Assembly (NCBI GenBank): GCA_000998425.1
Contig: LCDG01000004.1
Span: 1-50,815 of the forward strand
Direction of reading: 5' to 3'
From: Candidatus Nomurabacteria bacterium GW2011_GWC2_42_20
GTDB lineage: Bacteria > Patescibacteriota > Minisyncoccia > Phycocordibacterales > UBA1550
Length of the DNA stretch: 50,815 nucleotides
Position 1 is the first letter of the stretch, and every line of letters starts with the position of its first letter. Positions 3,459 through 8,599 of the stretch are shown here, piece after piece. Position numbers and translations under genes: made by a program. The notes under the pieces are model-generated. The model was not told the origin of the DNA. It ran no database searches and was given only the letters and a program-made list of their open reading frames with translations.

Positions 3459-3754
3459 GCGCTTGAGATAGGCGCTTTTGTTTTCAGGCAACTGGAGACA
3501 ACGAGACCTTTGACAACTCAATATGTAAACATCTAGAGCTTGTCTCGACTTTTCAGGTCTAGACAAGCTCACAAAAATTGGATTGCAAGTCCAAGTTAAC
3601 CCGCCTAAGTTTTCTTTCAGAAAATTTTGGTGGGTAAAAACTCTTCACTTAATTCTTAGCAGATTAAGTGAAGAGAGTGAGTAATAATTTCCGAAGGGAA
3701 CATTAGAGAGTATTTTTTCTTTTGTTCCGTTCTTGAGAGTTAATCAAATGCTCT
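3459..3754 (+). other. Structured 16S rRNA leader
   Basis: A gene-free leader of about 296 bases. Visible structure: a 10-bp perfect stem (3536-3545 with 3561-3570), a hairpin with arms around ACTCTTCACTTAAT and its complement just before 3680, and the 5' arm of the pre-16S processing stem (3708-3734), which pairs with 5362-5388. CTCTT(3751-3755)/AAGAG(3759-3763) could form a small hairpin at the mature 5' end. A sequence resembling boxA (TGCTCTTT) overlaps it, but I regard that as weak. Confidence 0.6.
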
Positions 3755-5169
3755 TTTTAAGAGAGTTTGATCCTAGCTCAGGATGAACGCTGGCGGCGTG
3801 GATAAGGCATGCAAGTAGAACGCCCCGCAAGGGGAGTTGCGAACGAGGTAGTAATACATAGGTACAAACCCCCGAGTCAGGAATAAGCGACCGAAAGGTA
3901 GTCTAATACTTGATAGTCCCGCAAGGGTAAAGATTTATCGCTTGGGGATTGGCCTGTGCAGTATCAGCTAGTTGGTAGGGTAATGGCCTACCAAGGCAAT
4001 GACGCTTAGGAGAGCTGAGAGGCTGACCTCCACCGATGGTACTCAATGGACGCAAGTCTGACGGAGCGACGCCGCGTGATCGATGAAGTCTTTCGGGATG
4101 TAAAGATCTTTTATGTAGGAGAAAGTTTTGATAGTACTACATGAATAAGGGGTTGCTAAACTCGTGCCAGCAGCAGCGGTAATACGAGTACCCCAAGCGT
4201 TATCCGGAATTATTGGGCGTAAAGGGTGTGTAGGTTGTTATGTTAGTCTTTTGTCAAAGCCTTCGGCTCAACCGGAGAATTGCGGGAGAAACGGCATAAC
4301 TAGAGGGCGCGAGAGGTTTGCGGAACTCATGGTGTAGGGGTGAAATCCGTTGATATCATGGGGAACACCAAAAGCGAAGGCAGCAAACTGGCGCGTTTCT
4401 GACGCTGAAACACGAAAGCGTAGGTAGCGAATGGGATTAGATACCCCAGTAGTCTACGCCCTAAACGATGATATCTAGCTATTCGGAGTATCGACCCTCT
4501 GAGTGGCACATAAAACTCAAAGGAATAGACGGGGACTTGCACAAGCGGTGGATCAGGTGGCTTAATTCGATGGTAAACGAAGAACCTCACCAGGGTTTGA
4601 AACTCATAGGAAAGACCTAAGAAACTAGGTAACTCCGCAAGGATCTATGAGCAGGTGATGCATGGCCGTCGTCAGTTCGTGGTTTGAACTGTCCCCTTAA
4701 GTGGGTCAACGAACGCAACCCTCGTTGTCTGTTATACGTGTCAGACGAGACTGCCCCCGCCTGTGTGCATAAGCGCAAATATATTTTGTTGCTTGTGAAC
4801 AGAGGCGGGGGAGGAAGGAGAGGATGACGCCAGGTCAGCATGTCCCTTTGATACCCTGGGCTGCACACTTGATACAATGGTCACTACAACGGGTCGCGAC
4901 GAGGTAACTCCGAGCTAATCCTAATAAAGGTGGCCCCAGTTCGGATTGAGGGCTGAAACTCGACCTCATGAAGTTGGAATCGCTAGTAATCGCGGGTCAG
5001 CTATACCGCGGTGAATACGTTCTCAAGTCTTGTACTCACCGCCCGTCAAGTCAGGGGAGCCGTGAGTACCCGAAATCCCATCTTGCATGGGCTTAAGGTA
5101 AGCATGGTAACAAGGACTAAGTCGTAACAAGGCACGGCTAGCGGAAGCTGGTCGTGAATCAATTCAAAA
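3755..5169 (+). rRNA. rrs: 16S ribosomal RNA (divergent, CPR type)
   Basis: A complete small-subunit rRNA of about 1,415 nt. Anchors in order: AGAGTTTGATC at 3762, the 530 loop at 4164-4182, ATTAGATACCCCAGTAGTC near 4437, the 900 region near 4515, CAACGAACGCAACCC near 4708, the decoding region with TTGTACTCACCGCCCGTC near 5031, and helix 45 with a GGAA loop (5131-5156). Several universal positions differ from the norm: the 530-loop site reads GCAGCAGCGG, the 900 region GAATAGACGG, and the 1390s TACTCACC. After helix 45 the sequence reads GAATCA then ATTCAAAA where CCTCC is expected. Ends are placed by alignment to E. coli and are approximate. No 23S, 5S or tRNA is linked within the transcript. 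Confidence 0.95.
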
Positions 5170-5446
5170 TATAAAATATACCATTGACCACAGAATTTAT
5201 TCTTGGTTGAGCGTATAATGAATTGGTCGGTTATTTCTGTAAAGAAATAAGATGAAAGTTCTCTCATCTCAAAAAGGAACTCCCTTATCAGAAGGGTTAC
5301 TGGTACGCAAGACCTAACTTAATCGCCTGTTCTTTTATAGAACGGACGGTGAAGTTAGGCGAAGAACGGAACAAAAGAAAGAATACTCACAAAAATAATT
5401 TGTGTTCTTGCAGTCCAAACAAAAGATTTACATATTGTAGTTGAAA
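5170..5446 (+). other. 16S trailer with 3' arm of a 27-bp processing stem
   Basis: The trailer is unusually long: about 190 bases separate the 16S 3' end from the processing stem. Bases 5362-5388 pair with 3708-3734 over 27 positions, all Watson-Crick except one G-U, enclosing the whole 16S; this is the usual arrangement for RNase III processing. Between lie hairpins such as 5313-5320 with 5352-5359 enclosing 5329-5333 with 5339-5343. I see no protein-coding gene and no recognisable intron core. Confidence 0.7.
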
Positions 5447-5519
5447 AAGCCCACAAAAAAGCCTGAATCACCAGATTCACGTCCTGGACGTAAACTGATT
5501 CAGGCTTTTTTGTGGGCTT
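5447..5519. terminator. Very strong terminator of the 16S unit
   Basis: A 24-bp perfect stem (5447-5470 with 5496-5519) with a 25-base loop, itself partly self-complementary. A-runs and T-runs inside the arms make it usable in both directions. The end overlaps the next gene's -35 box by two bases. Confidence 0.9.
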
Positions 5520-5546
5520 GACATTTATTACATAAAGTGATATGCT
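5518..5546 (+). promoter_or_regulatory. Promoter and SD of the 74-aa protein gene
   Basis: TTGACA (5518-5523), 17 bp, TATGCT (5541-5546). The predicted start near 5553 gives a 24-base leader carrying AAGGAGG (5565-5571) five bases before the ATG at 5577. It is a textbook SD, unlike the leaderless starts of the core genes. Confidence 0.85.
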
Positions 5547-5576
5547 GGTTTTATCTTAACAAATAAGGAGGTCGTC

Positions 5577-5801
5577 ATGACCAAAAAATCTTTTGCAGTT
5601 GTAGTTGTTCTTTTTGCAATCGTTTACCTGGGTCTAGGAGCTTACCTCGATCGTCCGACGGTTGAGGTCTCAGTAGATACTGGCCATTGCGTTCGCGCAT
5701 ACGGACCGAATGGTCCAATGCCGTGCGACGATGCAACGAGCGGGTCATACGAGAAGGTCTTCGTGGACCCAAAAAGGTTCAAAAAAGTTTTGCGTGGTTG
5801 A
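5577..5801 (+). CDS. Small exported or membrane-anchored protein, unknown function
   Basis: A 74-aa protein that I do not recognise. Residues 1-5 are basic (MTKKS) and about 6-24 form one hydrophobic helix, so it is a signal anchor or signal peptide. The exposed part has two cysteines in GHCVRAYGPNGPMPC, which could form a disulfide, and a basic end (RFKKVLRG). It has its own consensus promoter, a perfect SD and a hairpin terminator, so it is a stand-alone and probably well-expressed gene. It is the first of four tiny SD-led genes after the 16S. Confidence 0.7.
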   Translation: MTKKSFAVVVVLFAIVYLGLGAYLDRPTVEVSVDTGHCVRAYGPNGPMPCDDATSGSYEKVFVDPKRFKKVLRG

Positions 5802-7231: not shown

Positions 7232-7240
7232 TGCTATGAT
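7232..7240 (+). promoter_or_regulatory. Extended -10 promoter of murD, leaderless
   Basis: TGCTATGAT (TGn plus -10 box at 7235-7240), then six bases to the ATG at 7247. No convincing -35 and no SD. Confidence 0.6.
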
Positions 7241-7246
7241 TGGCAC

Positions 7247-8599
7247 ATGGACGAAATGAAATACAAAACTTTTTTTACGGGTAAAAAAATCACGATGCTC
7301 GGACTCGGGCTTTTGGGGCGTGGGGTCAACGTGGCAAAGTTTCTTGCAGAGCTTGGCGCGGAGCTTACGATCACGGATATGAAGGACGCGAAGGCACTCG
7401 AGCCGTCTTTGAAGCAACTAAGGAAGTTTAAAAATATTCGCTATGTACTTGGAGAGCACAGACTCAAGGATTTCAAGAATTGCGATATGGTTATAAAAGC
7501 AGCCGGTGTACCACTCGACTCACCGTACATAGCCGAGGCGAAGAAAAACAAAATACCGGTGGAAATGGATGCGTCGCTCTTTGCGAAATTTACACCAGCG
7601 ACTATTGTTGGTGTCACTGGTACGAGAGGGAAGTCCACAGTCACACACCTTATTGCGCACATTTTAGAGCAAGCATATCCGAATCATGTTTTTGTTGGTG
7701 GCAACGTGCGTGGCATGGCGACACTTCCGCTTCTCAAGAAAACAAAAATAGGGGACATCGTCGTACTCGAGCTTGATTCGTGGCAGCTGCAAGGTTTTGG
7801 TGACGCAAAAGTGTCTCCTCATGTTTCAGTGTTTACGAATTTTCTTAATGACCACTTGAACTACTACAAGGGTGATATGCAGAAATATTTTGAAGACAAA
7901 GCAAACATTTTTAAATACCAAAAAGATGACGAGGTGCTCGTGCTTGGCGAGCAAGCTGTAAAAGAAATTAAAGCTCGTTTTAAAGGCAAGATTAAAAGTG
8001 AAGTATTAGTTGCTAAAAAATCACTAGTACCGAAGGCGTGGAAGATTAAAATTCCTGGTGAGCACAATCTAGCAAATATCGCCTGTGCCGTCCTGGTATG
8101 CCAGGAGCTCGATGTACCCGTAAAAGCTATCAAGGACGGGGTCGAGAGCTTCCTTGGCGTGCCAGGGAGGCTTGAGCTTGTGCGTACTATAGGTGGGATA
8201 AAATACTACAACGATACAACTGCGACGACACCAGACGGGAATAGAGTTGCGCTAGAGGCCCTCGGACTAAAGAGTAAAAAGAACATCGTACTTATTGCAG
8301 GAGGAGCGGATAAAAATTTGGATTACTCTGACATGGCGAAGCTTGTGCATAAAACCGTAAAAGGCCTTGTACTTATCGAAGGAGCCGCCACCGAAAAGCT
8401 ACTATCATTTATCCCCAAAAGAACTTCATACCCTGTTTACATTGTAGACAACATGAAGGATGCCATTCTTTCAGCGTGCGACTTTGCGAAAAAAGGAGAC
8501 ACTATACTACTGTCTCCTGGCGCAGCAAGTTTCGGTGTATTTAAAAACGAATTTGATCGTGGAGATCAGTTTATAAAAATGGTAAAGAAGATCACATAG
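7247..8599 (+). CDS. murD: UDP-N-acetylmuramoyl-L-alanine--D-glutamate ligase (MurD)
   Basis: A 450-aa Mur ligase that adds D-glutamate to UDP-MurNAc-L-Ala in the cytoplasm. It has an N-terminal Rossmann-type domain (MLGLGLLGRGVNVAKFL), the ATP-binding loop GVTGTRGKST (about residues 122-131), ELDSWQLQGF corresponding to the ELSSFQL of MurD, NDHLNYY, and a C-terminal domain with PGRLELV and ILLSPGAASFGVFKNEFDRG, characteristic of MurD. The length is normal. Start 7247 is chosen over the ATG at 7256 because of the -10 box spacing. It is followed by a nucleotidyltransferase and murC on the same strand. Confidence 0.93.
   Translation: MDEMKYKTFFTGKKITMLGLGLLGRGVNVAKFLAELGAELTITDMKDAKALEPSLKQLRKFKNIRYVLGEHRLKDFKNCDMVIKAAGVPLDSPYIAEAKKNKIPVEMDASLFAKFTPATIVGVTGTRGKSTVTHLIAHILEQAYPNHVFVGGNVRGMATLPLLKKTKIGDIVVLELDSWQLQGFGDAKVSPHVSVFTNFLNDHLNYYKGDMQKYFEDKANIFKYQKDDEVLVLGEQAVKEIKARFKGKIKSEVLVAKKSLVPKAWKIKIPGEHNLANIACAVLVCQELDVPVKAIKDGVESFLGVPGRLELVRTIGGIKYYNDTTATTPDGNRVALEALGLKSKKNIVLIAGGADKNLDYSDMAKLVHKTVKGLVLIEGAATEKLLSFIPKRTSYPVYIVDNMKDAILSACDFAKKGDTILLSPGAASFGVFKNEFDRGDQFIKMVKKIT

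Follow-up and report, generated by a model that had tools for sequence, protein, structure and literature searches.

The 3′ tail of 16S rRNA carries the anti-Shine–Dalgarno (aSD) sequence, by means of which most bacteria locate their gene starts and which ranks among the most conserved of bacterial sequences. Several groups that initiate without it have been described. In the accessible text of a 2024 study, one Campbellbacteria and one Wolfebacteria genome lack CCUCC and have scarce Shine–Dalgarno (SD) motifs (PMC10783764). The locus analyzed here resembles these organisms in having a tail without CCUCC and few SD-bearing mRNAs, as judged by counting motifs, where that paper used a thermodynamic measure, and two Campbellbacteria records among our loci (L203 and L230) carry the same tail type as ours. 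The available part of that study concerns single CPR genomes, however, whereas here the state takes in an entire order and a large part of its class, graded intermediates are found, and the hairpin covaries. Endosymbionts, mycoplasmas, and Chryseobacterium-type Bacteroidota likewise lack both aSD and SD (PMC6107228, in the part available), but they are scattered or shallow, while the state described here lies deep in a very diverse lineage. The Bacteroidia, in the accessible portions of PMC6847099 and PMC9976891, share SD-free initiation and an A near the start codon, chiefly at −3; in contrast to the present case, where the sequence itself is gone, CCUCC is for the most part retained there and concealed within a protein pocket. 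Sequestration of the Bacteroidia type, by bS21, bS18, and bS6, was rejected for this clade, as there is no aSD to sequester. Lineages with leaderless mRNAs, among which the available text of PMC10783764 names the Nanoarchaeia, are similar in that a −10 element adjoins the start codon and selection for the aSD has been lost; here, unlike there, the clade is bacterial and the state is predicted from promoter positions. The literature searched, chiefly open-access and available in part, yielded no paper dedicated to aSD loss across the Parcubacteria, and in that same literature we did not find the clade-wide extent, the graded erosion, the covarying hairpin, or the −10/start layout, which are the additions made here.

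The window (the whole stretch analyzed, 50,815 nt) comprises positions 1 to 50,815 of contig LCDG01000004.1 from Candidatus Nomurabacteria bacterium GW2011_GWC2_42_20 (Bacteria; Patescibacteriota; Minisyncoccia; Phycocordibacterales; UBA1550), and all features given below lie on its forward strand. Its 16S rRNA gene (3755 to 5169) matches Rfam RF00177 end to end (1137 bits, model positions 1 to 1533) and is the single match to that model in the whole assembly (678,769 bases in 17 contigs, 92.6% complete). Helix 45 (h45) spans 5133 to 5156 and reads CACGGCTAGC-GGAA-GCTGGTCGTG, followed by AATCAATTCAAAATATA; its ten pairs and GGAA loop, seen by direct reading, are also predicted by folding. The tail at 5157 to 5169 is AATCAATTCAAAA (short form, UUCAAnnUUGAA) in place of the usual GATCACCTCCTTA and is without an aSD, as read directly and in comparison with relatives. 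A sequence-only reading of this DNA had claimed an intact h45, a tail without CCTCC, and no way for splicing to supply the motif, and all three claims were borne out. Specifically, a scan of 5160 to 5520 finds neither CCTCC nor CCTC and a single CTCC at 5280, and the sole CCTCC within the gene, at 4027, belongs to the 16S body. An intron as the supplier of CCTCC was rejected on these counts.

As far as sequences can tell, the 16S of the window truly lacks an aSD, and the trait is common to its relatives across a large branch. Among 80 genomes of the same order, 53 gave a 16S match, and 31 loci, that of the window's own genome included, were fetched; 3′ ends could be read in 29 (those of L017 and L019 were unreadable), and CCTCC is present in 0 of these 29. 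Named genomes sequenced in many different projects share this tail, which was seen in at least 120 of their stretches, covering Nomura-, Zambryski-, Taylor-, Adler-, Yonath-, Campbell-, and Harrisonbacteria. All tails compared within the window's genus agree, and the order consensus is GAWYAWUUCAA. In a sample of 383 genomes of the class, 71 have a canonical tail and 112 an altered one, defined as having no C at the first aSD position, and nearly all others fit neither pattern. The order is represented there by 41 genomes, 29 altered, 12 fitting neither pattern, and 1 canonical, the last (G188) being itself among the 29 with an altered tail. The canonical tail of G188 (G188:C6:260-304) lies at the edge of a contig and accompanies a different h45, the altered tail being found elsewhere in the same genome, and it is likely contamination. 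A phylum-wide sample of 286 genomes had readable tails in 76, and by hand count CCTCC is kept in 60 of the 62 outside the class and in 1 of the 14 inside it. According to the accessible part of a 2025 study (PMC12641178), 16S 3′ ends are often incompletely annotated.

The loss can be followed on a 16S tree of 115 rows, from which the tail was left out. The tree was built quickly, has some long branches, and carries SH-aLRT values as its sole branch support, so that the five changes it requires between canonical and noncanonical states are a rough number. The basal lineages of the class are mostly canonical, as are 9 of the 11 outgroup rows, and an 82-row clade containing the window's order has 0 canonical rows. 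The tree thereby places aSD losses deep within the class, as far as its topology can be trusted. Tails of intermediate kind were also found, namely GATCATCTCCTTT, which is one base off, GATTTTCTCCTTTT, GAACATTTCC, and GATCAATTAAAC, and the tails as aligned form a graded series consistent with the tree.

In canonical outgroup tails (10/10), the aSD makes up the 5′ side of a hairpin of the form CUCCUU-loop-AAGGAG, for example CUCCUU-UCU-AAGGAG. Both outgroup aSD variants have a matching opposite arm (UUCCUU with AAGGAA, and GCCUC with GAGGC). For 64 tails without CCTCC from the class outside the window's order, stem scores average 4.91, compared to 3.64 in shuffles and to 4.24 (SD 0.14) when arms were swapped between tails. 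Because 4.91 exceeds every swapped-partner score (maximum 4.67 in 300), the two arms covary in this part of the class. Within the order no covariation was found: across 131 distinct tails the stem score of 4.34 is above that of shuffles (3.76) but below that of swaps (4.57), and the absence of a signal reflects a 5′ arm that scarcely varies, the commonest stem being UUCA/UGAA (50 tails). In the window's genus, a 9-bp stem directly 3′ of h45 is predicted by ViennaRNA both from the single sequence and, with RNAalifold, from seven aligned tails of the genus; its arms are AUCAAUUCA (5158 to 5166) and UGAAUUGGU (5219 to 5227). The end of the 3′ arm overlaps a GGTCGGT/GTCGAT element. The motif GTCG[AG]T is found no more than 90 nt past h45 in 85 of the 131 distinct order tails, compared to 1 of 131 for the reversed motif; it usually follows a variable helix, the window copy lying at about 5225 to 5231, and it may be a 3′ processing site. 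One family (f75) has kept the aSD and not the other arm of the hairpin. We infer that the hairpin serves pre-16S processing and outlasts SD pairing.

Use of SD motifs was counted as GGAGG or AGGAG at −18 to −4, with starts taken from a simple purpose-written caller that relies on codon bias only. By this measure, an SD precedes 18 of 659 starts in the five order genomes examined and 9 of 340 in class members elsewhere whose aSD is lost or eroded, compared to 26 of 439 in aSD-bearing class members and 14 of 243 outside the class (order vs. aSD-bearing class, p = 0.011). SD use is low in every group, even in the aSD-bearing relatives (5.8 to 5.9%), and reaches its minimum in genomes without the aSD. 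The genome of the window has 13 SD-like starts in 368, where its own shuffled upstream sequences give 2.8 and a far window gives 10/368. Among 97 orthologue pairs shared with a genome of the same genus (G013), an SD stands at 1 of 97 starts on one side and at 0 of 97 on the other. As conserved genes are without an SD, there is no genome-wide selection for the aSD. Moreover, since SD motifs are scarcely used, there is no need to invoke repair of the tail after transcription, which the sequence-only reading had raised. That reading had also reported AAGGAGG or AGGAGG just before several genes of the window. For the most part this did not hold: 0 of 39 called genes has GGAGG, AGGAG, or AAGGAG at −20 to −1, and GGAGG followed by ATG is at chance (8 cases, 7.3 expected under a first-order Markov model), mostly before short open reading frames or none. 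Across the genome, ATG-anchored GGAGG counts give a ratio of 1.13 and were set aside as noisy, several control motifs being equally high. In another part of the same genome (L079; G000:C10:1-20000), three of its few SD-bearing genes stand close together; two of them resemble, by their N-termini, genes for thymidylate synthase and thymidylate kinase, and the three are perhaps an acquired cluster.

The claim did stand for a 74-aa accessory gene at 5577 to 5801, whose product has a hydrophobic N terminus followed by LDRPTVEVSVDTGHCVRAYGP and matches in relatives. A promoter scan gives TTGACA-17-TATGCT at 5518 to 5546, and AAGGAGG lies at 5565 to 5571. Homologues were found in 6 of 21 genomes searched, its own included, all of one genus, and all six (L363 to L367 and the window) have a GGAG-type run at SD distance in a genus that lacks the aSD. 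If the genome-wide rate of 3.5% applied, the chance of GGAG in the five other homologues would be ∼5 × 10^−8, a figure that treats related sequences as independent, which they are not. Purine runs that act by another route, as the sequence-only reading had allowed, may be confined to this accessory family.

What marks the starts of the order instead is seen just upstream of them. A TATAAT box, allowing one mismatch, has its first base at −14 to −11 in 143 of 658 starts, compared to 66.8 (SD 7.9) in dinucleotide shuffles, and TGnTAnnnT stands directly before the start in 65 of 658 compared to 5.8 (∼11-fold). Both members of a pair have the −10 element in 12 of 76 orthologue pairs (5.4 expected), and both have TGnTAnnnT in 5 of 76 (0.6 expected). 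The −10 element accounts for about a fifth of starts (∼22%), and its placement implies leaderless or near-leaderless mRNAs for that share, insofar as promoter position predicts the transcript end. In the window, a Mur ligase gene (by Pfam) with its ATG at 7247 has the extended −10 element TGCTATGAT at 7232 to 7240, ending 6 nt before the ATG; TGCTATGAT is also kept at the orthologue in G013, and the gene is a predicted leaderless start. Starts in the window's genome further favor A at both −3 (0.53) and −6 (0.51) and T at −1 (0.57), with no G peak, and codons 2 to 5 are A-rich. The −10/start layout is weaker yet present in some aSD-bearing genomes (G182 and G646). Leaderless starts are thus not specific to aSD loss, and the layout is probably older than the loss.

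Among initiation and rRNA-processing factors, both IF3 and KsgA are retained, the former in 34 of 35 genomes and the latter over the cut-off in 34 of 35. Class members lack full-length Era whether or not they bear the aSD; the search gave matches in 35/35 genomes with only two, both outgroup, over the cut-off, and these two passes depend on summing two GTPase stretches of one frame. Era does not track the aSD, and its loss was therefore rejected as the cause of aSD loss. The accessible part of PMC12641178 likewise has Era mostly missing in CPR and YchF kept. S1-like proteins gave matches in 35/35 genomes, 0 over the cut-off, and bS21 gave weak matches in 5 of 11 genomes of the order compared to 10 of 12 aSD-bearing class members (p = 0.09).

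The 16S gene of the window looks like a solitary transcript unit, to judge from a processing stem around it and a terminal repeat. The stem comprises a leader arm (3708 to 3734) and a trailer arm (5362 to 5388) joined by 27 consecutive pairs (−49 kcal/mol in all), and a large inverted repeat with a T run at 5447 to 5519, found by eye and partly listed by a scan (5500 to 5521), is the likely terminator. No 23S rRNA was found in the window's own assembly at its 92.6% completeness, and the 16S ends in a terminator-like repeat of its own, so that the rRNA genes seem not to be linked. The leader arm contains TCTTTTGTTCCGTTC (3717 to 3734), an element that recurs in the order as TTTTGTT[CT]CG in 47 of 73 leaders. 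It is more alike among leaders than a plain stem arm requires and is possibly an antitermination or processing signal too. In a covariance search, 9 of 15 genomes of the same genus had no 16S match or a fragment only; in one of the nine, G013, a pattern search nevertheless picks up the 16S tail. Covariance searches thus seem to miss 16S genes that are interrupted or divergent.

We consider it probable that the aSD was lost by clade-wide erosion in this class of Patescibacteria (Parcubacteria), whose starts would be SD-independent and of leaderless type. The data support a course of events in which SD motifs would have become rare at gene starts; the motif, which sat in the 5′ arm of a hairpin, would then have drifted once SD pairing ceased to matter, and the hairpin would have been kept by changes in both arms (CUCC to UCUCC or UUUCC, and on to UUCA-UGAA in the window's order). 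The data likewise support starts with a −10 element, from which transcription would begin at or beside the start codon, in an A-rich, G-poor context. On such a scheme, initiation would be independent of SD pairing and mainly on leaderless or near-leaderless mRNAs, genes internal to operons would be initiated through the start codon and its A-rich context, and the hairpin would be retained for processing of the pre-16S 3′ end. A stronger version, that SD guidance is wholly replaced, most core genes starting with no pairing of mRNA to rRNA, that an extra short helix stands beside h45 in the mature ribosome where the single-stranded aSD would be, and that the GGAG of the 74-aa set is read by a factor other than 16S rRNA, seems to us improbable.

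That the altered tail is an assembly or binning error and the true tail canonical is hardly credible. The source is in 17 contigs and G188 holds its canonical fragment, but 29 of 29 readable ends in the order are without CCTCC, independently sequenced named genomes of many projects agree, the tails are graded in keeping with the tree, and G188 has an altered tail as well; for the clade, error is already refuted. The second 16S copy with a normal tail that the sequence-only reading had allowed for finds no counterpart either, there being one copy in the assembly. A broader form of that idea, in which SD pairing persists with CCUCC provided by a further 16S gene or by a separate fragment of rRNA or small RNA, could draw on the incomplete assembly, whose missing 23S makes a missing piece conceivable, and on the GGAG run in all homologues of the 74-aa gene. 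Many near-complete relatives have the same altered tail, however, and the near absence of SDs from conserved genes (1/97 and 0/97) also argues against it, so that we hold it to be very unlikely.

Equally slim is the chance that the diverged tail is itself a new aSD pairing with a new SD. The conservation of GAWYAWUUCAA across the order suggests some function, but the upstream k-mers most enriched are TATAAT-like, sequences complementary to the tail (TTGAA or GAATT, for example) are absent from the 14 4-mers and 5-mers listed, and the tail is predicted to be paired in the window's genus. More weight belongs to a variant in which the aSD is lost and starts are chosen mainly by an A-rich, unstructured, Kozak-like context of the kind found in Bacteroidia, with leaderless mRNAs a minority. 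The A at −3 and −6, the T at −1, the A-rich codons 2 to 5, and the restriction of the −10 element to ∼22% of starts all speak for it, and we regard it as a real possibility, if on balance doubtful: the ∼11-fold enrichment of TGnTAnnnT points the other way, the A/T pattern at −12 to −7 is partly the promoter itself, and the two routes can coexist. Erosion of the aSD with starts largely of leaderless type is the reading we prefer.

In much of this diverse group, gene calling and 16S annotation would mislead where they presuppose CCUCC and SD motifs. A clade that holds intact, one-base-off, paired-but-changed, and replaced tails would offer tests of what the aSD is for, and its graded nature would also permit the loss of SD use and of the aSD to be put in order and selection on the hairpin to be tested apart from SD pairing.
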